Position numbers and translations under genes: made by a program
Shown here: positions 2,075 to 25,224 of the stretch, in pieces
How positions within the stretch are numbered: the first letter of the stretch is position 1
Layout of the letters: each line of letters opens with the position of its first letter
Origin: a virus
Length of the DNA stretch: 25,224 nucleotides
IMG/VR virus record: IMGVR_UViG_3300028025_005067
Coordinates: 1 to 25,224 of that record
Reading direction: 5' to 3' (one strand)
The notes under the pieces: generated by a model
What the model was told of the DNA's origin: nothing
What the model saw: only the letters and a program-made list of their open reading frames with translations
Database searches by the model: none

Positions 2075-2839
2075 ATGAACATGGAGCAATACCGTGCAAT
2101 GATTGCACAAGAAAAAGAGAGTCAGAAAACTGACCAAACTCAAGCAGAAACTCAAACTAAAACAGTAGAAGAACCAAAACAAACAACAGAAGTAGCATCA
2201 ACACCAACTGTAGTCGATGAGATAGATATTGAAGGCGTTGGTAAAGTAAAGATTGATGAGTTAAAGAATGGTTATTTAAGACAGTCCGATTATACTAAAA
2301 AGACTCAACAGTTATCAGCAGAGAAAAAAGAAGCAGAGGACGCATTAATCTTATTTGATTATTTGAAAAAGAACCCTGAACTTGCTAGTGAATTAGCAAA
2401 GAAAGCCCCTCAGTTGAAACCTGTTAATGCTGAATCAAGTAAAGTCAGCGAACTTGAAGATAGATTAGCTAACATGCAAATGCAGTTAGAACTAAGAGAT
2501 TTACTTGCAGTACATCCTGGGATTGATTCAGTTAAACTGATTAATACTGCAAAAGAAAAAAATATTAGCTTAGATGATGCCTATAAAATTATAGCACCTG
2601 TTGAAAAAGCTAAAGAAGTCAATGTCGATGATTTGGAAAAACAAATCAGAGAGAAGATTATGAAAGAACTACAAGATACTAATAACACACGTACAATCAT
2701 CACATCAAATGGAAATGCTACTAATGTATCTGGAGCAGTACCTCAAATATCTCCAGCAGAGCATAAGGTTGCTATGAACATGAAGATGTCTGATGATGAG
2801 TATATAAAGTGGAGAGACGCTGGTCTCAAGAAGAAATAG
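2075..2839 (+). CDS. Capsid scaffolding protein
   Basis: A 254-residue highly charged protein between portal and capsid genes, the usual place of the scaffold that directs capsid assembly and then leaves. A low-complexity T/Q/E-rich N-terminus (about 15-48) is followed by the segment LKNGYLRQSDYTKKTQQL (about 63-80), a pattern I associate with phage scaffolds. Long predicted helices follow (about 80-205). The C-terminus is lysine-rich, as in scaffolds that touch the capsid by a basic tail. AAGGAGGA precedes ATG 2075. Unlike the capsid protein, it has no Prp-type motif at its N-terminus. Confidence 0.8.
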   Translation: MNMEQYRAMIAQEKESQKTDQTQAETQTKTVEEPKQTTEVASTPTVVDEIDIEGVGKVKIDELKNGYLRQSDYTKKTQQLSAEKKEAEDALILFDYLKKNPELASELAKKAPQLKPVNAESSKVSELEDRLANMQMQLELRDLLAVHPGIDSVKLINTAKEKNISLDDAYKIIAPVEKAKEVNVDDLEKQIREKIMKELQDTNNTRTIITSNGNATNVSGAVPQISPAEHKVAMNMKMSDDEYIKWRDAGLKKK

Positions 2840-2847
2840 GAGGAATA

Positions 2848-3882
2848 ATGAACGATATTTTAAAATCATTTAAATTTGATTTACAGATGTTTGCAACTCC
2901 TGTTCAACCAACTCCAGAGAATACTTTCAATTACACAGAAGCAGACCGTGATAATGAAACAAACTTTGGTAAATTGCTTGAACCTGGATTACGTAAGATT
3001 TTCTTTGAAACTTACGATGAGATTCCTGAACAGTTTAGTCAAATCTACAATGTAGAATCTTCTACAAAAGCTGTAGAGCACGACTGGGGAATGGGTGCAT
3101 TTGGTACATGGGAAAAGAGAGCTTCACAAATTGATACAGTAGCTTATGGAGTTTTAAGCCCAGGTCTTGACAGACGTTATGTACATGATGCATTCACAAA
3201 AGGTTTCATGATTACTCGTGAAATGTATGACGACGATATGTATCGTCAAATGGACAAGATGTCCATGGCACTTGCTAGAGCAGGTCGTGCTAAAGTTGAA
3301 TCTGATGCAATGATTCCACTTGTTAAAGGTTTTGACAAAGCAACTAGACCTATCTATGATGGCGAAGCATTTTTCTCTAATGCGCATCCATTGCTTGAAA
3401 TGGACTATGTTGCAACACCAGGAGCTAAAAAAGGTAATAACCTCATTACAGGCCCACTTTCAGATGTTAATCTTAAAGAAGGTATTCAGTTAATGAGAGA
3501 AGTTCCAGATGAGATTGGTAATCTTGTTCAGTATAAAGCTGACAGACTTATCATCCCACCAGCACTTGAAGATACTGCAATTAGATTGTTACAATCAGCA
3601 CAACTTGCTGGTGGTCAACTGAACGATACAAATAAATTCCTTAACTCTTATGGAATCCAAACTGTAGTTCTTGATTACCTTGGAGCGGCCGCTGGTGGTA
3701 GTGATACTCATTGGTTCTTGCAAGATAGCAAAAGACACGAATTAAATTTCTTCTGGAGAGTTAAGCCAGAATTCGAATGGGACAAAGACTTTGATACCTA
3801 TGTATCTAAGTACAAAGGTTACATGAGATATTCTTACGGCGTATCTGATTGGAGAGGTATGGCAGGTTCTACTGGCCTATAG
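2848..3882 (+). CDS. Major capsid protein with N-terminal Prp-type cleavage motif
   Basis: Probable HK97-fold major capsid protein, 344 residues, directly after the scaffold. AGGAGG, which overlaps the scaffold stop, precedes ATG 2848; an in-frame upstream start inside the scaffold gene is not needed. Residues 8-16 read FKFDLQMFA. This matches the N-terminal motif of Firmicutes ribosomal protein L27 (LNLQFFA type) and of the staphylococcal phage 80alpha capsid protein, both cut after the Ala by the protease Prp. Cleavage here would fall between A16 and T17 and leave 328 residues. A Prp-like protein is encoded at 18762-18959. The cleavage itself is inferred. Confidence 0.88.
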   Translation: MNDILKSFKFDLQMFATPVQPTPENTFNYTEADRDNETNFGKLLEPGLRKIFFETYDEIPEQFSQIYNVESSTKAVEHDWGMGAFGTWEKRASQIDTVAYGVLSPGLDRRYVHDAFTKGFMITREMYDDDMYRQMDKMSMALARAGRAKVESDAMIPLVKGFDKATRPIYDGEAFFSNAHPLLEMDYVATPGAKKGNNLITGPLSDVNLKEGIQLMREVPDEIGNLVQYKADRLIIPPALEDTAIRLLQSAQLAGGQLNDTNKFLNSYGIQTVVLDYLGAAAGGSDTHWFLQDSKRHELNFFWRVKPEFEWDKDFDTYVSKYKGYMRYSYGVSDWRGMAGSTGL

Positions 3883-11977: not shown

Positions 11978-14900
11978 ATGTTCGATGTAAAACAATATTC
12001 TGCACTTAAAAAAGCTAAGGATATGAAATTTGAAACAAATACTGATTACTCAGGTATTCTCAATAAAGCAAGAGAGACAAGATATTCAAACTACAAAGAA
12101 CCAAGAAGTCTCTCTGATAGATTTTTTGATTCTATGGGTGGTACTCAGTTTGTTACAATGGGTATTTTACGTGGAATAATTAATGACGATAGAACTGTTT
12201 TAGATGGTATATGGGATGGTATTAAAGCCGCTAATCCACTTGGAGAAGGTTTTGAGCAAGGTGAGCATTCATTCTCTGATGTCATAGGTGATGTTGGCTT
12301 TAACCCAACAACAGCAACAGGTAGATTTATGAAAGGTGCAGTGGGTCTTGCAGGTGATATTCTGTTTGACCCTTCTACCTATCTTACTGGTGGATTAGCA
12401 GGTGTTGTAAAAGGCACTGGTGCAGTGAATGATGCAATGAAAGTTGCAGATGCTGTTAGAACTGTATCTACTAAGTATGATGTTATTGCAAAAAATGGTG
12501 CAGAGCTTGCATCAAGTGTTTATAAGAAGACGTTTGATGATTTGATTTCTAAAGGAAAAGTTACTACTACTCAAGCCGAGCATCTTGCAAAACTTAAAAC
12601 AGCAAAAGTTGAATCAGAATTAACAAATAAAATAGACAGTCTTACAAAAGGATTGGATATAAATGATGCTATAGACTCTGTTAAACGCTCATCAACAAAA
12701 GCAGGTAAGGTTTTATCTGATTCGGAAGTTTTAGAAAAGGCTACTGAATTTAAGACAAACTTTGATAAACTCATTGGTATCAATCGTAAAACAAAAGACT
12801 TAACTCTATCACTTGGCAATGCCCCTCTTGGCAAAAAGATATTTGGTGAATTGGCTGATAAGAGTATAAAATTAGCTGATGCAGAAACTGTTGGTAAGAT
12901 TGGTGATGCAGGTATCGGCAAGGTCTATAATAAGCTCCGTAGCGATATTTATAAATCAGAGCTAGGTAATATGTTCTCTAAGAATGCAACGCTGTATAAG
13001 CTTGCCTTGAAGTCTCCTGATGCATTGTATGATTCACTTGAAATGATTACTATGAAACTAGGTTATACAAAAGAGTTTAATAAAGCTAAAAGATTAATCT
13101 ACAGAGAATTAGAGCGATTTGAATTAACACCTGATGAGAAGAAAGAAATATTGAATATCCTACAAGACCCATCTCAATTTAGAACAATTAAAGATAAGAT
13201 TAAATTCGTCCAAACAATTGAAGGCAAGAATTTGCAGAAGTCTTATATGAATGACTTTGACAAACTCAGAGATGAGATTAATTACTTCTCAACTATAAAG
13301 AAACAGAAAGAAGATTTGATTGATGTTGGTAAATCTAAAATTGATGAATTAAAGCAGAACATATTTGAGGCTGACATTGAAAGAGTTCAAAAACTCAGAA
13401 GTCTTAACGATGCATTTGATGAGATAAAAATGCCTGACCCGGTTAAGTCGGCAAAGACCACTGCATCAAAAACTGATGATATTCTTCATGTAGATAGAGT
13501 TGAAGATGTAGATGGCCTTAAATCTATCAAGAAAATATTCAAGAGTGATGCTGTTACAACCAAAGCAAAAATTGAGAAGGTTAATGAATTTTTAGCAGAC
13601 TCTGGAATCAAGATATCAAATAGTGTTAGAGATAAAGATGTTTACAGTTTGATGAATGTTATAAAGAATGCTGTTAATAAGGATGAGGTAATTGATTTCA
13701 TCAAGAAGAATGAGAATTTATATAACGACAAAATGAAAACTGTGTATCAACATATTGCTAAAGTTATTGGTTATGGTGATGAGTATGGCTTTAAATCATG
13801 GGCTGATTACACTAAGTATATTGAAGATTTAAACACAAAAAGAAAAGTTCTTGTAGATGAGTTCGGTGTTGAAAAAGCTGAAAGGTTAATTCAAGCTGAT
13901 ATGAAAAAATCATTAACTGCATTGACCGAAAGAGCAAATAAGAATAAGAAAGGTTTTGCAAAGACCACTAAAGCAGTTGACCCTCAAAAAGTTATTGACG
14001 ATTATCTCATCAAAAAAGATACACGTGAAAAAATGTTACGTGAGTTTAATAATCTATCTATGAAAGAAACTATGGAGAAGATTACTAAATTTAATAATGA
14101 TGAAATGATGCGTGATTATTATAGGCTTATTGATGAAGGTTCTTTGAATAGCACATCAAAGAATTATAAGGATTTTAAAACACGTAGACAAATCGTTGAT
14201 GAGATTGCTACACGTGACCCACAAGAGTTGAATAAAGACTTAGGTAGAGCTACAAAACCTGAACAGCAGATGCGTTACAAGTCTTATGTCATTAATAAAT
14301 TTGATAAAGCTAAAATGAAATCATCTTATATCGAAAACAAAATATTCAAGAATCAAAAAGTTAAAGATAAAACCAAATTGAATAAAGATGGAATTGGTGA
14401 AATTAAAGTTTCCGAAGCTGTTGAAAAATGGGTTGATAAAGTTATTGATGAAGCACAAGAGATATATGATGACATATTTAAATATGACATTACAACTTAC
14501 GATGCTAGTTTAGATAGAAATGTTACTAAGAGTTATGTACGTCAATTTAATGAACTTTCAGATAAACAGATTGAGTATCTATTTGATGTGTCAGCAAGAC
14601 GTATTGCAGATAAAGCACTTGCTACTGAAAAGAAAATACTTGATGATGGTATTAAACTTCCGAAAGAAGTTGCTAAAGCTCAGAAAGTTAAGCTTCTCAA
14701 AGATGAGATACTAAAACTTGGAGATGAAGTTGATAATGAACTTAAACTTGAGTCTTCCTCGGCAGTTGCAAAAAACTCTATTAGAGATATAGATATAGAA
14801 TTTGAACTTGCCAAAGATGCTCAAAAAGCTCAGTTGTCAAAACATCAAGATGACATTCGCAAAGTTGAGCAGTACTATGATGACTATAAGGCAAACTTGA

Positions 14901-17152
14901 TGAATGATTTAGTCAAGTATGAGAATGGTTTGATTAGCTTAAAAAAAGACTTAGACAAATTTGATGTCAAGACATACGAATCAAAATTAGATGAACTTGG
15001 CAAGTTGCAAAAGATATTGTCTAGTGATGAAGCATTTGAGCAATTTATGATTAACTCTCATGGCACAAAATTCGTCAACGACGTTATAGATGCGCAATCA
15101 CCTGTGCATACTCTGCTTGATGATAGACTTAAAATAGAAGATAAAGTTGCTTTAGTATCAACTAAACTCAAGAATAGATTTAATGAGATAGGTGCAAGTG
15201 AAGTTAATATTGGCAAATTATCTGAGGAACAGTTTGAGAACTTTATCGATATGTATGTGCCTCATGTTCTTACTGATGATGGTAGAAAGTTTTTTACTAA
15301 AAATCAAGAGAATAAAGTTATAGCAGGGTTTGGAAAAGAGTTTGGATTTGGTAAGAAGTTTTCTCCATATCAAAAGTCAAGAAGTATTAAAGCATTAACT
15401 ATTGATGGAGAGTTTGTAAAGAACCCAACGATAGACCAGTTAAACACATACTTTAAAGAAAAGTTTCCTGATTTGATTGAAGGTAAAAATGTGTTTGTTG
15501 ATGATATTGCTGACTTATATATTGCAAGAGCAATTAAGAATAAAGAGTTATTGTACGATAATGCTTTTATGAATGATATGTCTAAGACGTTTGGCCTTGA
15601 GTTTGACCCTTTAAAGAAGGTGCCTACTGGTTTTAAGACAGTCATCAACATATCTCATCTTAAAAAAGGTATTTGGTCTGATGCATATGCTATTGCAAAA
15701 GAGAATATTGCCAAAGGTACTTCTCAAACTACAGATTTAAAACTTGAAGCCGAGTCACAAATTGCTGAACTACTTGGTATGTATGGTCTCGATGCAAAAG
15801 TCCTTGATGATTTGTCTATGCCTTTTATAGAATTGAACAAGTCTCAAGCAAGTCTTCTGTCTGGTAGTAAGTTAAAACCAAATGTATTTAACATGTCGGA
15901 AGAAATAGTTGATAAGACGAACCTTTCAAGAAAGAATCAAATCTTAAAGGATAACAATAAACTATTAGACATGTTTGACAAGTTTACTCACTTTATCAAA
16001 CTTAATCAGACAACAGTTATGCCAGGGTTCCATGTAAGAAATAAATTCAGTAATACATTCAACAGTTGGCTTGGTGTTGGCTCAAAAGTATTTGATGTCG
16101 ATTTGCAAAAACAAACATTTAATGCGATAATAAAGAAAGGTAAAGTTGATGATGTAGTATCTATTCCAACTAAAAATGGCGGATTCAAAGATATGTCCAT
16201 GGAAGAATTATATAATGTTGCGAAAGACTATGGCGTTATCGATGAAGGCTTTTTTGAGAAAGAGTTAGGTACATCATCTGGTAGCAAAGGTTTGTTTAAA
16301 GGTTTACCTAAAGGTGCAGACCCAACAGATACTAGAAGTTTTAAACCATATGAGATAGGTGCTAAAGCAGGTTCTATAGTTGAAAGTCAAGACAGATTCT
16401 TGCACTTCGTTGCACAACTTCAAAACGGTAAAGGTTATAGAGAAGCATCCGAATCAGTGAATACATTCCTTTTTGATTACGGTGACTTAACTGGATTTGA
16501 GCAGAATGTAATGAAGAGGATATTTCCTTATTATACTTGGATGAGAAAGAATGCACCATTGCAACTTCAAATGATGCTTGAGCATCCTGAGAAATATAGA
16601 AATACGAATAAAATACTGCACTTCCCTGAGAAGATGTTAAATGAAGATGAGAAGGTTGAAGATAGAGATTTAGCAGACTTTGCTAAAGATTGGATTCAAA
16701 CTCCATTTACACAACAAAGAGCAGATAAAGTTATCATTGATAAGAATGGTGTTGAGAGAACAGTTCCAGGTGGTGTTGAACCTGTAATGTGGAACCCAGG
16801 TATGCCTTTCCAAGATGTAAACAAAGTACCAAATATATTTGACATGAAAGATACTGCAAAACAATATTTCAGTATGTTAAACCCAATCCTTAAAGTACCT
16901 GTTGAACAGGCTTTAAATAGAAATGTATTCTTTGATGAGGCAATAGTTGATGATGAAGGCAATGGTAGAATAAACCATATCTTATCTCAATTAAGTATGT
17001 ATAATACTGCAACAGGAATCAAAGATAAAGAAGGAGTAGATAAAGCTTTACAGATATTAAATGCATTGTCTGGAGTTAAATTCTATTCAAATGACATTGA
17101 AGGTGTCAGATTAAGAAAGCTCATTAGAGCACAGGAGGAAAAGAATGATTAA
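11978..17152 (+). CDS. Giant internal virion / ejection protein, 1724 residues
   Basis: The largest gene, about a fifth of the window. A Gly-rich, partly hydrophobic segment near residues 105-145 (GRFMKGAVGLAGDILFDPST) could enter membranes. A very long Lys/Glu/Asp-rich helical region follows (about 150-1250). The C-terminal part has VMPGFHVRNKFSNTFNSWLG (about 1347), QDRFLHFVAQLQNGKGYREA (about 1470) and FPYYTWMRKNAPLQLQM (about 1516). This pattern resembles domains of phage 'large polyvalent proteins' (LPD38-type, from memory). No lysozyme motif was recognised. AGAGGT precedes ATG 11978, and the gene overlaps the holin start by 8 bases. Confidence 0.7.
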   Translation: MFDVKQYSALKKAKDMKFETNTDYSGILNKARETRYSNYKEPRSLSDRFFDSMGGTQFVTMGILRGIINDDRTVLDGIWDGIKAANPLGEGFEQGEHSFSDVIGDVGFNPTTATGRFMKGAVGLAGDILFDPSTYLTGGLAGVVKGTGAVNDAMKVADAVRTVSTKYDVIAKNGAELASSVYKKTFDDLISKGKVTTTQAEHLAKLKTAKVESELTNKIDSLTKGLDINDAIDSVKRSSTKAGKVLSDSEVLEKATEFKTNFDKLIGINRKTKDLTLSLGNAPLGKKIFGELADKSIKLADAETVGKIGDAGIGKVYNKLRSDIYKSELGNMFSKNATLYKLALKSPDALYDSLEMITMKLGYTKEFNKAKRLIYRELERFELTPDEKKEILNILQDPSQFRTIKDKIKFVQTIEGKNLQKSYMNDFDKLRDEINYFSTIKKQKEDLIDVGKSKIDELKQNIFEADIERVQKLRSLNDAFDEIKMPDPVKSAKTTASKTDDILHVDRVEDVDGLKSIKKIFKSDAVTTKAKIEKVNEFLADSGIKISNSVRDKDVYSLMNVIKNAVNKDEVIDFIKKNENLYNDKMKTVYQHIAKVIGYGDEYGFKSWADYTKYIEDLNTKRKVLVDEFGVEKAERLIQADMKKSLTALTERANKNKKGFAKTTKAVDPQKVIDDYLIKKDTREKMLREFNNLSMKETMEKITKFNNDEMMRDYYRLIDEGSLNSTSKNYKDFKTRRQIVDEIATRDPQELNKDLGRATKPEQQMRYKSYVINKFDKAKMKSSYIENKIFKNQKVKDKTKLNKDGIGEIKVSEAVEKWVDKVIDEAQEIYDDIFKYDITTYDASLDRNVTKSYVRQFNELSDKQIEYLFDVSARRIADKALATEKKILDDGIKLPKEVAKAQKVKLLKDEILKLGDEVDNELKLESSSAVAKNSIRDIDIEFELAKDAQKAQLSKHQDDIRKVEQYYDDYKANLMNDLVKYENGLISLKKDLDKFDVKTYESKLDELGKLQKILSSDEAFEQFMINSHGTKFVNDVIDAQSPVHTLLDDRLKIEDKVALVSTKLKNRFNEIGASEVNIGKLSEEQFENFIDMYVPHVLTDDGRKFFTKNQENKVIAGFGKEFGFGKKFSPYQKSRSIKALTIDGEFVKNPTIDQLNTYFKEKFPDLIEGKNVFVDDIADLYIARAIKNKELLYDNAFMNDMSKTFGLEFDPLKKVPTGFKTVINISHLKKGIWSDAYAIAKENIAKGTSQTTDLKLEAESQIAELLGMYGLDAKVLDDLSMPFIELNKSQASLLSGSKLKPNVFNMSEEIVDKTNLSRKNQILKDNNKLLDMFDKFTHFIKLNQTTVMPGFHVRNKFSNTFNSWLGVGSKVFDVDLQKQTFNAIIKKGKVDDVVSIPTKNGGFKDMSMEELYNVAKDYGVIDEGFFEKELGTSSGSKGLFKGLPKGADPTDTRSFKPYEIGAKAGSIVESQDRFLHFVAQLQNGKGYREASESVNTFLFDYGDLTGFEQNVMKRIFPYYTWMRKNAPLQLQMMLEHPEKYRNTNKILHFPEKMLNEDEKVEDRDLADFAKDWIQTPFTQQRADKVIIDKNGVERTVPGGVEPVMWNPGMPFQDVNKVPNIFDMKDTAKQYFSMLNPILKVPVEQALNRNVFFDEAIVDDEGNGRINHILSQLSMYNTATGIKDKEGVDKALQILNALSGVKFYSNDIEGVRLRKLIRAQEEKND

Positions 17153-17755: not shown

Positions 17756-18202
17756 TTATTTTATAAATCTCTTTCTTTCATCCGCTAATTGAGAATGAAT
17801 CTTAATTTCTATTCTTGGATTTTCTTTGTCGAGTTCGACGGAGTTTATTCTTGGCATTGCAAAATAGTCATTGCCAAACACTCTAGGTTGTAATACATCA
17901 AATAGTAACTTTAGCATATTATGACTATCTCTAATTCGTAAATCAGGCATATAAAATACCATATCTACATAATACCAATTACCATCTTCTTCTACTTCCC
18001 ATTTGTTTTTCTTTGTTGCTAAGTTTATTAAACTTGTTGCAGTTCTTACATATTCCTCAGCGGTCTTTGTTAATCTTTTTCCACCACGTCCTGTATTATA
18101 ATACATGTGATTTACAGATGGAGGTAATGGTAATATAAATTTCAATTCTTTTTTAGTAAGTGCTTCTATTCGTTTTAAATCTTTCTTCTGTTTAACTTTC
18201 AA
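17756..18202 (-). CDS. rusA: RusA-like Holliday junction resolvase
   Basis: Cuts four-way DNA junctions made during replication and recombination, helping to resolve phage DNA before packaging. It has 148 residues, compared with about 120 for E. coli RusA. Visible family features are LPLPPSVNHMYYN (about 25-37), RIRDSHNMLKLLFDVLQ and FGNDYF. In E. coli RusA the active-site aspartates are D70, D72 and D91. Here the first and third are present, but the second is His (RDSHN in place of DxDN). The start is TTG 18202 with AGGGTGAT upstream; that site can be hidden in a hairpin. The gene has its own promoter at 18255-18283. Confidence 0.82.
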   Translation of the reverse strand: MKVKQKKDLKRIEALTKKELKFILPLPPSVNHMYYNTGRGGKRLTKTAEEYVRTATSLINLATKKNKWEVEEDGNWYYVDMVFYMPDLRIRDSHNMLKLLFDVLQPRVFGNDYFAMPRINSVELDKENPRIEIKIHSQLADERKRFIK

Positions 18203-18283: not shown

Positions 18284-18787
18284 CTATTTTCCTGTACTGC
18301 CAATTCCACCAGTTCTGTTTTGCATGTCTGGTTCATCATTATCTGTGATTTCATATCTCATTATAATTCCTTGAGCTATTCTATCACCTTTTTTGGCCTC
18401 ATACGTTGTTCCTGTTGTATTTTTAATTGCCATGAATATGTTTCCACCTTCTTCACCAAACTCGTAATCAGCGTCAATTACAGGGCAATTAGGTATAACT
18501 AATCCATGCTTAATTCCAAGAGATGAACGAATGCGAATATCTAGCCACTGTCCTTCTTCAAGATGAACCTTGATGTCAGTAGGGAATGTTACAGTTTTGT
18601 TTGGCTCGAATCTATAATCCTTTGCTAATACAAAATCATAACCTGCTGAATTTGCAGTCTTTCTAATCGGAAGAGTAATCTCTGTTGGAAATTGGTGCTT
18701 TTGTTTTGTAGCAGTATTCTCAAATGTTTCAAATAATCTTCGTTTATTGTTATCTACAACACTAAACCTTGCGTTTGATTTTTGCAT
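18284..18787 (-). CDS. dut: dUTPase (deoxyuridine triphosphatase), trimeric family
   Basis: Hydrolyses dUTP to dUMP and pyrophosphate, keeping uracil out of DNA and feeding thymidylate synthesis by the ThyX-like enzyme in the same operon. All five motifs of the trimeric family are visible in 167 residues: SAGYDF (47-52), RSSLG (87-91), VIDADYEFG (103-111), KGDRIAQG (133-140) and RTGGIGSTGK (158-167, the C-terminal arm). An N-terminal extension of about 35 residues precedes the usual start of the fold. GGAGGATATTA precedes ATG 18787, which lies 26 bases inside the upstream prp-like gene. Confidence 0.93.
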   Translation of the reverse strand: MQKSNARFSVVDNNKRRLFETFENTATKQKHQFPTEITLPIRKTANSAGYDFVLAKDYRFEPNKTVTFPTDIKVHLEEGQWLDIRIRSSLGIKHGLVIPNCPVIDADYEFGEEGGNIFMAIKNTTGTTYEAKKGDRIAQGIIMRYEITDNDEPDMQNRTGGIGSTGK

Positions 18788-18959
18788 TAATATCCTCCAA
18801 TGCTATGTTTAATGGATATTGATTGGCCAATACTCTAAGTGCAAGTTGTGCAGATTGTAATACAGTAGACACACTTGCGCATACTATATCGTTTGTCTCT
18901 GCATAATTTGCATGACCCTCAATGTGAATTGAGTTTTTATCAAGTGTTATCTTAATCAT
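18762..18959 (-). CDS. prp: Miniature Prp-like cysteine protease
   Basis: Prp cuts the N-terminal extension off ribosomal protein L27 in Firmicutes and also trims capsid and scaffold proteins of staphylococcal phage 80alpha. The family signature is present: GHANYAETNDIVCASVS, residues 15-31, with catalytic-type H16 and C27 (H22 and C34 in S. aureus). The protein has only 65 residues compared with about 105-110 for bacterial Prp, so the C-terminal part is missing or reduced. AGGAGGAATT precedes ATG 18959; an in-frame upstream ATG overlaps the RNR gene and is not needed. The capsid protein at 2848 carries a matching cleavage motif. Confidence 0.8.
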   Translation of the reverse strand: MIKITLDKNSIHIEGHANYAETNDIVCASVSTVLQSAQLALRVLANQYPLNIALEDINAKIKRKV

Positions 18960-18967
18960 AATTCCTC

Positions 18968-21127
18968 CTAGAATACTGGACATGAACCCTTATCACATGA
19001 TTGAATGTTTACAACGTCTTTATCTGATTCGAATACTTCATATTTTTCAAGAAGTTTAATATCAAATTTAGACATTGATGCAGACAATGCTTCATATTGT
19101 TCTTTTGTAATTTCTTCATACGGTGCCAATTCATATGTTCCATTATCAGCAGGTAAGAATGAAACTCCAATCAAGTCATTCCAATTGTCTTTTAGTAGTT
19201 GTGGCAAAGAATCCCATTCATCTTCTTTTACATAAATGGTTATTGATGAGTTATGTGCGGTATAGTGTGTTTGGAATATTAAATAATTCTCAAACTGTTC
19301 TTGCAACGTCACATCTCTACTAGTCTTTGTTGCTCCTGATTCTATTGGGAAGTCAATTACTAATGTTGTTGCATTAGCCAATCTTTCTTCCATAGTTTCA
19401 CCTGGAGTAGCGACCTCTGGATTTATCGTCCATTTTAATTCTTTTGCAACTTGTACTAATGGGTCACTTGCATTGATTCGAACACGTCTGATGTAGTATG
19501 GTGCATATGAGTAATGCAATCCACTTGATACACCATTTGCCAATTGGCTTAATGTACCCTCTGGCTTGACCGTGGTGACGAGTAATGGTTCAGGTATACG
19601 CAACATCCTTGCATATGATGAAGCCTCAGCAGAGGCAACCTGCTCAAGGAATATGAGCATCTTTGATTCTTCTTCTGTTGAATATTGAAGAATATCCATT
19701 GCATCTTTCCAGCCAGTTACACTTGCACCTATTAATCTGTCTCTTTGATGAACTCTATTCCAATCAGGTAATTCTAAATTAAGACAAGTCATTCTTATTC
19801 CTGCTCTTACAGACAACCTCATTGCAGTTGCAAGTCCACCCATGTTTAACCGGATTATTCCAGTATCTTTATCTCTTATTACAAAAGCTTTAACATTTAC
19901 TGTTGTAAGATTACATACACCTTTATTGTCAAGTAGTATTTCTCCACATGGGTTTACACCTCTTGCATTTGGCCTACGTTTCTTTGCAGATTCCTCATTG
20001 TACCAGCCAGGTTCACCATTTTCTTTGATGAGTTCAACTAGATGTTTTATCTCATCGATAGTAGGTTCTTCTTTAAACACAATTGAGTTGTTGCTCATAG
20101 CTCTGTGAGATAAATTGGGATTCATCCAAAATTCTTTTTTAGCATTCATTACTTCTAAATCATCTTTATCAAACATAATCATCAATGCAGTTCTTCTAAC
20201 GCCACCAACAACAACATTTGCACCTTTTAGACAATTAATATCTAATAAATGAATAGGTCTTAATATTAAATACCCATCTTTATCTTTTTCAAGTGGTGCA
20301 AGTCTTGGGTCAATTTCATTGTCAAATACCATTTTGAATTTAGAAAACATCTCTTTTAATGGTTCATGACCTGATGCAGTACCGCCGAATGTTTCCAGCC
20401 TATCTCCTTTTGGTCTAATCGAGTTGTAACTAATTTTTATGTGCTTAACATATGAATATTGTTTTAATGTGATGAGCTTAAAGAATTCTTCAAGTGCTTT
20501 TACCCAGCCCTCTTTGGAATCTCCTACATAGATTTTTGCATATCCATTTTCAAGTAATCGAACATTTGTATGCTCAATTCTTTCTTCTTTTGGTAATGGT
20601 TTAAACTCTGAGTGTGTTAACTCAAAATCATTTCTTATGTGTGGGAATTGATATACAACATCTCTTGTAAGTCTAATCCCTACACCTGTTCCAACCAGTA
20701 GCAAGTAGAATATTTCTGACAAATCAGATACAGACTTTGGTTCACTAAATGCACAATTAAAATTTGCAAGTGGAAATAAGTCTGCTACCTTTGTGTCTGC
20801 TCCACCAATCCAATGAGTTCTACCTGATAAGAATTGACGTTGATTGAAAATGTTGTCAAACAAATGTTCAGCTTCTGCTGTTGATGAGTCAAAAGATTCT
20901 ACATAGTTGTCATACTTTGATTTGTTTCTTTCTTTGAAACCAATCGAAATATTATAGTCAACAGCTCTAGCCATTGCCTCTTTATATGTTTCTCTTCTTC
21001 TCTCTTCTCTTAACCATCTTGAATAAGTTCTTTGAAATATAAATTTCGCAAGCTCATTCATCTGTTCAGGATAATCATCATACTTTGCTAAAAATTCTTC
21101 TGACAAGAATATTAATTGTTTTTTCAT
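18968..21127 (-). CDS. nrdJ: Adenosylcobalamin-dependent ribonucleotide reductase, class II
   Basis: Reduces ribonucleoside triphosphates to deoxy forms using a cobalamin-derived thiyl radical; it needs no oxygen and no second subunit. It has 719 residues, close to the monomeric enzyme of Lactobacillus leichmannii (739). Key residues match that enzyme in spacing: C125 (NFNCAF) and C405 as the active-site redox pair, radical C394 and E396 in NPCGEI, and the C-terminal pair C711/C716 in SCDKGSCPVF. GTGVGIRLTRD (146-156) and VVVGGVRRTALM are also typical. GGAGGAATTTA precedes ATG 21127, which overlaps the previous stop (TAATG). Confidence 0.93.
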   Translation of the reverse strand: MKKQLIFLSEEFLAKYDDYPEQMNELAKFIFQRTYSRWLREERRRETYKEAMARAVDYNISIGFKERNKSKYDNYVESFDSSTAEAEHLFDNIFNQRQFLSGRTHWIGGADTKVADLFPLANFNCAFSEPKSVSDLSEIFYLLLVGTGVGIRLTRDVVYQFPHIRNDFELTHSEFKPLPKEERIEHTNVRLLENGYAKIYVGDSKEGWVKALEEFFKLITLKQYSYVKHIKISYNSIRPKGDRLETFGGTASGHEPLKEMFSKFKMVFDNEIDPRLAPLEKDKDGYLILRPIHLLDINCLKGANVVVGGVRRTALMIMFDKDDLEVMNAKKEFWMNPNLSHRAMSNNSIVFKEEPTIDEIKHLVELIKENGEPGWYNEESAKKRRPNARGVNPCGEILLDNKGVCNLTTVNVKAFVIRDKDTGIIRLNMGGLATAMRLSVRAGIRMTCLNLELPDWNRVHQRDRLIGASVTGWKDAMDILQYSTEEESKMLIFLEQVASAEASSYARMLRIPEPLLVTTVKPEGTLSQLANGVSSGLHYSYAPYYIRRVRINASDPLVQVAKELKWTINPEVATPGETMEERLANATTLVIDFPIESGATKTSRDVTLQEQFENYLIFQTHYTAHNSSITIYVKEDEWDSLPQLLKDNWNDLIGVSFLPADNGTYELAPYEEITKEQYEALSASMSKFDIKLLEKYEVFESDKDVVNIQSCDKGSCPVF

Positions 21128-23133: not shown

Positions 23134-24966
23134 TTAGACCTCCGCATCAGATACAATTAAATCTTTACCACTTCTTTTTCCAATGAACATTACTATTTCA
23201 TTTGGCTTGATAAATTCTTTAGTTGAAATATATGCCCAAGTGTCTTTAAATGCAATAACTTTAACATTACCGTTTAATGTTTCAACATTGATGAACGCCA
23301 TTTCCTTGCCGTTTTTGTCATTGAATGTTTTAACTTCATTGATGATACACCATATAACTGCTTTTCCACCTTCTTCAAATTCTTGAAGTGGTTTGGAATA
23401 TTTTGATTCGAGCGGATGATTCTTTAAGAATACACCCAATGCTTTCTTCTCAAGTTCTGCAATCTGTATATCAGTCATTTGAATGGTGTCTAACCATTCA
23501 CCATTTTCAATTTGTTTTTTGGACAATTGAACGTTGTGCATATATGCAAGTAATTTTCCTCTGTCTTCGTTAAACTCATCAAAACATCCAGCCATAATCA
23601 TTGATTCGATAACATTGTTTCTAATGTCTGAACGACTTCTTCGTTCCATTAAATCTTCAAAAGATTTTATAGGTCTTATTTTCTCAAGTCCTCTAATTGC
23701 AGTATCTCCAAAATTTGTGATACTTGTCAAGCGGAATCTTATTGAGTTGCCTTGTGGAACAAATTCGTTAGAACCTGTGTTTAAGTCTGGAGGCATAATA
23801 GTAATGCCAATTTTTTTACATTCTTGAATATAACCTGCAACAGCAGATTGCCCATCTCCATCAGTTTTTTCAGAACTCATTAAAGCAGAATAGAATTCAA
23901 CAGGATAATGATATTTAAGCCATGCAGTTTGATAACTCATTATTGCATAACTCGCGGCGTGTGATTTATTAAACGAATACTCACCTTGAGCATCTTCTAT
24001 ATCATTCCATATTTCCTCTGCTACTTCAATTGAATAACCACTTGCTACGGTATCGTCGTAAAACTTCTGCCGTAGTTTTGTATCACTCCTTAAATCCTTA
24101 TTTTTTCTGATGTTAGCATCTGAGAATGCAATGTCCCATCCAGCATATGTCTTCGCATCAAGTAGAAATTGCTCTTGATATGTTAACAGACCTTCTGTTT
24201 CATTCATATAGTCTTCTCGTTCTGCTCTGATGTTGTATTGCTTACCATTGCGCCTATCTATATACTCGTTCCAATCCCCTGTTCCAGGTCTTATTAGAGC
24301 ATTGATAGCTATTAAATCTAAAAAATCTTTTGGTTTTTGTTGCATAACTTTCTGTGCTTGATTTGATAATTGAAATACACCAGTTACTTCACCTTTAGAT
24401 AACATATCATACACTACTTCTTCACTGTAGTCAATAGTTTCTAAGTCAATTTCTATACCTTTATTTTGCTTAATATTAGTAACAGTCCGTTTTAACATCG
24501 GTAATGTCTCCAATCCAAGCACGTCAAATTTATAGAAACCTAGAGCCTCAAGCATATACTTATCGAAGCATGCTACACATTCATTTCTTCCATCACCAAT
24601 TGCTTTTAATGGCAGGTAATGAGAAAGATTTTCATATATAACGATTCCACCAGCATGCATTGATTCATGAGATACTGTGCCTTCGAGTCTTTCAATTATC
24701 TGAAATTCTTCTTGATGCTTATCTCTGTAGCTCAACAATTTTGGCGAAGCCTTGTATGCTTCTTCCATTGATGGGCATAACTCTGGTATTAACTTTGTTA
24801 TCTCACCAATTTCTGACATAGAAAATTCAAAGAAAGATAATACTTTTCTTGTGACTGCTCTTGGTGTAAGCGTTCCAAATGCTATAATCCTTGCAACATT
24901 CTCTGCTCCATACTTCCTTTGCAAATCGTAGAACACTTCATCTTTGTCAGAGAAGTCTACGTCAAA
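23134..24966 (-). CDS. dnaE: DNA polymerase III alpha subunit, DnaE type, 3' exon
   Basis: Replicative DNA polymerase; this is the C-terminal 610 residues. It begins FDVDFSD, the end of the catalytic PD[IF]D[VI]DF motif, then KYGAENVARIIAFGT, HAGGIVI, KFDVLGLETL with the third catalytic Asp, GVFQLSNQAQKVM, LIRPG, YQEQ and FNKSHAASYAIMSYQTAWLK. The final 80 residues look like an OB-fold, and no further tau-binding region follows, so the end is shorter than in bacterial DnaE. The apparent ATG at 24969 is not a start: the residues PD expected just before FDVDF are missing, and the sequence upstream is a group I intron. Exon 1 lies outside the window. Confidence 0.9.
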   Translation of the reverse strand, partial: FDVDFSDKDEVFYDLQRKYGAENVARIIAFGTLTPRAVTRKVLSFFEFSMSEIGEITKLIPELCPSMEEAYKASPKLLSYRDKHQEEFQIIERLEGTVSHESMHAGGIVIYENLSHYLPLKAIGDGRNECVACFDKYMLEALGFYKFDVLGLETLPMLKRTVTNIKQNKGIEIDLETIDYSEEVVYDMLSKGEVTGVFQLSNQAQKVMQQKPKDFLDLIAINALIRPGTGDWNEYIDRRNGKQYNIRAEREDYMNETEGLLTYQEQFLLDAKTYAGWDIAFSDANIRKNKDLRSDTKLRQKFYDDTVASGYSIEVAEEIWNDIEDAQGEYSFNKSHAASYAIMSYQTAWLKYHYPVEFYSALMSSEKTDGDGQSAVAGYIQECKKIGITIMPPDLNTGSNEFVPQGNSIRFRLTSITNFGDTAIRGLEKIRPIKSFEDLMERRSRSDIRNNVIESMIMAGCFDEFNEDRGKLLAYMHNVQLSKKQIENGEWLDTIQMTDIQIAELEKKALGVFLKNHPLESKYSKPLQEFEEGGKAVIWCIINEVKTFNDKNGKEMAFINVETLNGNVKVIAFKDTWAYISTKEFIKPNEIVMFIGKRSGKDLIVSDAEV

Positions 24967-25224
24967 CATATTAATCCAATATTCCTATTGGTATGGACTA
25001 TATCTTCATCCTCGTCTTTACGTTAGGATGTTCAGCACTTCGAGTGGTAGCATATCCACCCTACTCCCCATTGGGATAGTCTCTACACTTTATTTGAGAA
25101 TTATTTTGAAGTGTTTATCATGCATATGTTTCTCAAGTTGTTTTGGTTTTCCACCTAATTCACTTGCAATTTTGCATGCTTCTTTCACAGATTTACAATC
25201 ACATATTTTTATACTGTCTTTATA
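24967..25224 (-). ncRNA. Group I intron (3' part, likely subgroup IA) inside dnaE
   Basis: The 3' part of the catalytic core is visible on the minus strand. P7 is formed by GACTAT (25081-25076) and ATAGTC (25001-24996). Between them lie small hairpins like P7.1/P7.2 (for example CACT/AGTG at 25046-25036) and a P8 hairpin CATCCT/AGGATG (25030-25007). After P7 comes a perfect P9 hairpin CCAATA-GGAA-TATTGG (24991-24976). The expected last intron base is the G at 24967, after which the conserved polymerase motif resumes. P3-P6 and the 5' splice site are beyond the window. Confidence 0.85.
25090..25224 (-). CDS. C-terminal end of an intron-encoded protein (likely homing endonuclease)
   Basis: The frame is open from the right edge to TAA at 25090-25092, giving 44 residues that include CDCKSVKEACKIASELGG and end DKHFKIILK. 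It stops 7 bases before the P7 strand of the intron, as an ORF looped out of an intron core would. Intron ORFs at this place usually encode homing endonucleases, and the helix SVKEACKIASELGG could belong to a C-terminal helix-turn-helix. The catalytic domain is outside the window, so the class (HNH, GIY-YIG or other) cannot be told. Confidence 0.6.
   Translation of the reverse strand, partial: YKDSIKICDCKSVKEACKIASELGGKPKQLEKHMHDKHFKIILK

Follow-up and report, generated by a model that had tools for sequence, protein, structure and literature searches.

A minimal Prp-family protease gene in a phage replication operon and a Prp-type site in the capsid protein of the same phage

Background

Does a phage whose capsid protein begins with a Prp-type cleavage site also bring the protease that cuts it? 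Prp, with which bacteria such as Staphylococcus trim a ribosomal protein, is an essential host enzyme and a proposed antibacterial target; where Prp is known to trim capsids, it is mainly the host's copy that phages exploit. The question is raised by an IMG/VR virus contig of 25,224 bases, analysed here over its whole length and called the window, in which head and tail genes lie on the plus strand and nucleotide-metabolism and replication genes, including a small Prp-like open reading frame, on the minus strand. The window probably covers about half a genome, judging from relatives of ~50 kb that have the same genes. An earlier note on this DNA had proposed that the phage supplies its own Prp-like enzyme for its own capsid protein. 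The minus-strand features surrounding the reading frame are as follows.

18762..18959, minus strand: predicted mini-Prp protease gene (65 aa; PF04327, 41.9 bits; short-form alignment A7)
18969-18964, minus strand: Shine-Dalgarno AGGAGG of the mini-Prp gene (consensus site, from the sequence)
18968..21127, minus strand: ribonucleotide reductase (RNR), upstream neighbour of Prp (PF17975, PF21995, PF02867; synteny)
18284..18787, minus strand: dUTPase, downstream neighbour of Prp (PF00692; synteny)
17756..18202, minus strand: RusA-type endonuclease, conserved next gene (PF05866; synteny)

The same strand group also holds a PD-(D/E)XK nuclease, a gene judged by eye to be ThyX-like, and DNA polymerase III alpha, a polymerase of this type lying at 23134-24969, incomplete at the contig end. 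A 1,724-aa protein is encoded at 11978-17152 and has relatives in all of the long relatives examined.

Results

The 65-residue translation of the reading frame (MIKITLDKNSIHIEGHANYAETNDIVCASVSTVLQSAQLALRVLANQYPLNIALEDINAKIKRKV, with a stop codon at its end) contains the signature GHANYAETNDIVCASVS, in which H16 and C27 are present. Searched with the Pfam Peptidase_Prp profile (PF04327), it scored 41.9 bits (E 1.2e-10) against a curated cut-off of 27 bits, with profile positions 1-54 of 90 aligned, and it also matched PHROG 4478 'peptidase' (E 2.7e-8); the best PDB match by sequence, S. aureus Prp (SaPrp, 4PEO), was weak (E 0.0074). Residues G15, H16, D24, C27 and S31 are the counterparts of SaPrp G21, H22, D31, C34 and S38, positions at which mutation leads to loss of activity (PMC9405229), and these counterparts are invariant in 10/10 aligned mini-Prps (alignment A7). 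The Prp-family membership that the earlier note had drawn from H16 and C27, and for which it had proposed this profile search, is thereby upheld, as is the position of the gene between RNR and dUTPase, both neighbours being confirmed by Pfam. From its sequence, the protein is predicted to be a cysteine protease, a minimal member of the Prp family (MEROPS C108, clan CR).

The arrangement of the locus was followed in relatives of the capsid protein fetched from viral contigs, 40 longer records of which were searched with PF04327. Three scored over the cut-off: G011, of 53.5 kb, and G014 and G015, each of about 50 kb. All three have a full-length Prp of 97-99 aa flanked by RNR and dUTPase, and RusA comes next, as it does in the window; in some of them, one or more small genes are interposed at the locus. 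The AlphaFold model of the G015 Prp matches SaPrp 7KLD (E 1.2e-8, TM 0.80/0.75) and TM1457, and the full fold is present. A further contig, L176, carries RNR, a 66-aa short Prp (PF04327, 62.4 bits) and dUTPase, and RNR is the upstream neighbour of Prp in the window, G011 and L176 alike. The order RNR-Prp-dUTPase is conserved in the lineage of the window; in the window itself, the 3' end of the Prp gene overlaps the dUTPase start at 18787 and the dUTPase ribosome-binding site lies within Prp codons. In G018 the capsid leader, RNR and dUTPase are present and no Prp was found between RNR and dUTPase or elsewhere in this incomplete contig; contigs G016 and G002 of the same leader clade stop short of the RNR-dUTPase region, so that the absence of Prp from them is uninformative. 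A search of viral contigs with the 65-aa protein as single sequence returned no relatives, nor did a search with RNR as bait, and an initial alignment of phage Prps (A1) proved too diverse for use as a query.

The earlier note had treated the reading frame as a Prp without remarking that it is short. The whole beta-beta-alpha-beta-beta-alpha-beta Prp fold is absent from the 65-aa protein, which is therefore a shortened variant of the family and not a standard member. Missing are beta3, beta4 and the greater part of alpha2, and the length is about half to two thirds of the normal one; alpha1 passes directly into the C-terminal 'NQYPLNIALE' (QYP..IALE), which aligns with the 'KQYPKHLSIEE' that ends full-length Prps. 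The same short form is found in L123/L181, L128, the L162-L180 group, L182 and gp6 of Streptomyces phage Kromp, and about twenty other contigs hold short Prps of ~62-77 aa. Modelled as a monomer, the window protein reached weak to moderate confidence (pLDDT 76.8, pTM 0.53), and a fold search with this model gave no PDB match. Given the missing beta3, beta4 and most of alpha2, the mini-Prp probably acts as a homodimer or oligomer, and a moderate monomer model without a PDB match would fit a sheet that is completed by a partner. A Prp tree on 45 shared columns does not separate shortening in place from acquisition out of the mini-Prp group.

The full-length Prps at the same locus in three relatives could suggest that the short reading frame arose from such a gene by an error of sequencing or assembly, or else that it is a chance reading frame. 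We give this explanation almost no credence, as L176, an independent contig, repeats the arrangement RNR-mini-Prp-dUTPase, about twenty further contigs also carry the short form, and the reading frame and its ribosome-binding site are intact; L176 and the other short forms refute it.

The proposed substrate lies on the opposite strand, preceded by the scaffold gene.

2075..2839, plus strand: scaffolding protein (PHROG 3927; motif survey)
2848..3882, plus strand: major capsid protein (344 aa), proposed substrate (PF10124 and PF25209 above cut-off; PHROG 371)
2848..2892, plus strand: capsid leader MNDILKSFKFDLQMF, predicted cut F15/A16 (leader clade and pre-cut sister capsids)

The capsid protein matches the Mu gpT-like and Phage_capsid_4 families and starts as MNDILKSFKFDLQMFATPVQ, with AGGAGG ahead of its ATG. 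Its leader is followed by ATPVQ, and FDLQMF, then A, occupies residues 10-16, which places a [DN]LQxF/A site of the kind found in Prp-type capsid substrates within about 20 residues of the start. In phage 80alpha the Prp cut falls between F and A (PMC5744158), and by this precedent the predicted scissile bond is F15/A16, before A16; the cut after A16 given in the earlier note is one residue off. The N-terminal site that the note had recognised is itself well founded, being kept in 34/34 relatives of one capsid clade, and this conservation places it beyond chance. Among the other window proteins, scaffold included, the motif survey found no N-terminal Prp-type site.

The leader-bearing capsids form a single clade (34 of 57 capsid proteins, SH-aLRT 96), in which LQ (LR in L046) is followed by any residue and then F, H or Y, the surroundings being very variable; in one group of the clade, H is present and the segment after it is lost. 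The capsids of the nearest clades have no leader and begin exactly at, or close to, the predicted mature end, as in L053 (MATPVQPT) and L050 (MPTPVQPT), with further leader-less starts in L048 (MATVTPVQPT) and L047 (MPVTPITG), each of the four having a GAGGTGA-type site. PF04327 was found in no contig with a leader-less capsid, the 44.4-kb contig of L047 and the 48.5-kb contig of L053 among them, so that capsid relatives starting at or near the predicted cut occur in Prp-less contigs. The leader arose once, and its co-occurrence with Prp within the lineage is therefore one event and not independent evidence. Against the prohead protease/capsid fusion profiles NF045541 and PHROG 133, only the capsid half was matched (348-633 of 634 and 380-667 of 668, respectively), with no fused protease domain upstream of the capsid domain. 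In this incomplete contig, the separate Prp may stand in for the protease domain that fusion relatives have.

Pairing of phage Prps with Prp-type sites was then sought outside the lineage. A scan of viral contigs with the mini-Prp alignment returned 164 relatives, of which 80 were kept and 38 had distinct catalytic stretches; nearby reading frames of at least 150 aa were scored for the motif at the N-terminus, with an internal window of the same length as control. The N-terminal motif was found in a nearby reading frame at 32/38 non-redundant Prp loci versus 3/38 for the internal control, and at 6/26 leader-less capsid loci. Phage Prps adjoining proteins with Prp-type sites are thus widespread, and proteases of the Prp family are a common phage-encoded component of head gene clusters. 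In phage Fontainebleau, Prp adjoins a scaffold and a capsid gene whose products both have NLQLF in their N-termini, and in Kromp (L012, 4240-6501) a mini-Prp is flanked by scaffold (GWFQLTRHD) and capsid (SWFRLDRHD), the two sequences forming a candidate diverged Prp site of an actinobacterial phage. Several proteins of the phage locus in L236 begin with MNIQRF-like Prp-type sites, and a further late gene near 8117 in L122 also starts with one, observations that raise the possibility that phage Prps also trim proteins besides capsid and scaffold.

These surveys bear on whether the phage Prp might act mainly on a non-capsid target, for instance host L27 or a different protein of the phage, in an early takeover function. 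The location of the gene in the replication operon, away from the head genes where most phage Prps lie, would suit such a role. We regard it as very improbable, because no other window protein has the N-terminal site, site-bearing proteins adjoin most phage Prp loci, and the 65-aa protein scores far under the cut-offs of the NCBIfam L27-processing Prp equivalogs (PRK14553; 31.3 bits versus 133). None of 17 Prp phages carried L27.

A host enzyme was considered as the alternative source of cleavage. Of the relatives, phage contig L109 was binned in a Mollicutes MAG and L110 in a Bacilli MAG, the binning of 4-kb phage contigs being weak evidence. In the Bacilli MAG, prp adjoins a canonical long L27 containing MQLNIQLFAHKKG, whereas PF04327 scored over its cut-off in 0/49 genomes of the family of the Mollicutes MAG holding L109; a 395-genome sample of the class gave no further host. 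The L27 of L116 and L130-L159, from the family of Mollicutes MAG G049, retains an extension at its N-terminus after a strong GGAGGTGA site, and the end of this extension is changed (MLLEINILKCM then ASKKG; MLIDIQLLPHM then ASKKG). The retained extension with its altered end, together with the 0/49 genomes with PF04327 over the cut-off, suggests another processing enzyme or an internal start.

If host Prp cut the capsid site, as in 80alpha, the phage mini-Prp could be a remnant that is decaying or lacks proteolytic activity, acting perhaps as a chaperone or by modulating host Prp. Such an explanation would accommodate the loss of beta3, beta4 and most of alpha2, the capsid site of G018 with Prp absent at its locus, and the prp gene and MQLNIQLFAHKKG-containing L27 of the Bacilli MAG. 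We nevertheless consider it unlikely, given that the catalytic residues are invariant in mini-Prps of several unrelated phages, that the gene has a strong ribosome-binding site, that in many phages the mini-Prp lies next to a head protein with a Prp-type site, and that PF04327 is over its cut-off in none of the 49 genomes of the Mollicutes family. Independence from host Prp is plausible, although G018 has the capsid site and no Prp was found in its incomplete contig.

Discussion

The reading that we favour, and hold to be likely, is that the mini-Prp trims the major capsid protein of its own phage. It would remove capsid residues 1-15 by cutting at F15/A16, probably as a homodimer or oligomer, and we infer from the place of its gene among the replication genes that its synthesis probably precedes that of the head proteins. 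Against this reading stand the weak monomer model, the low equivalog score, the Prp-less G018, the single origin of the leader, the scaffold without a site and the fact that capsid cleavage is dispensable in 80alpha (PMC5744158). The idea of a phage-supplied Prp for the phage's own capsid has good support and is not unprecedented: the earlier note was right in the family, the capsid pairing and the operon position, and it overstated the novelty, as phage Prps are common and the arrangement is widespread and partly known already. The new elements are the shortened form of Prp, its location in a replication operon and, alongside them, a clean set of sister capsids that are pre-cut; in the open-licence papers searched, we found no description of mini-Prps, nor of phage Prps being paired in general with Prp-type sites.

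In this phage, capsid trimming would probably fall to an enzyme that the phage itself owns and that has no more than about 65 residues. The sister capsids, being pre-cut, offer a natural experiment on the purpose of the leader, and independent phage Prps, with the smallest workable form among them, bear on the mechanism and specificity of Prp. A broader and rather doubtful possibility is that mini-Prps (~62-77 aa) form a minimal class of proteases in their own right, active only as oligomers and repeatedly paired by phages with their own sites, even in Prp-less hosts, and that Prp may be at root a phage morphogenesis enzyme taken over by bacteria for L27.

Comparison with known systems

With S. 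aureus Prp (MEROPS C108) and 80alpha, the window shares the GHA..DIVCA..S signature and the LQxF/A site at the capsid N-terminus. The window Prp is phage-encoded and has 65 aa, whereas SaPrp is host-encoded and has 106, and 80alpha has sites in both capsid and scaffold where the window phage has the capsid site only. The protease of Streptococcus phage Cp-1 (gp13), placed in the same MEROPS family, is reported to cut its own major head protein (PMC12445089, citing Martin 1998), a tested precedent, and so resembles the proposed system in being a phage-encoded Prp-like enzyme with its own head protein as substrate. It differs in having 104 aa, a weak PF04327 match (18.5 bits) and a removed segment of 48 residues, and no LQxF leader was seen in the Cp-1 head protein. 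PHROG 4478 'peptidase' genes stand in the head clusters of Acutalibacter phage Fontainebleau and Oenococcus phage Krappator149, and one is unannotated in Dorea phage DO134P1; these Prps are likewise phage-encoded, with LQxF leaders on scaffold and/or capsid in Fontainebleau and DO134P1, but unlike the window protein they are full length and adjoin head genes, outside a replication operon. The short form itself is shared by Kromp gp6 'protease' and the short Prps of L162-L182, whose genes, in contrast to that of the window, usually lie between portal or minor head genes and the scaffold, the exception being L176, where the gene occupies the same RNR-dUTPase locus.
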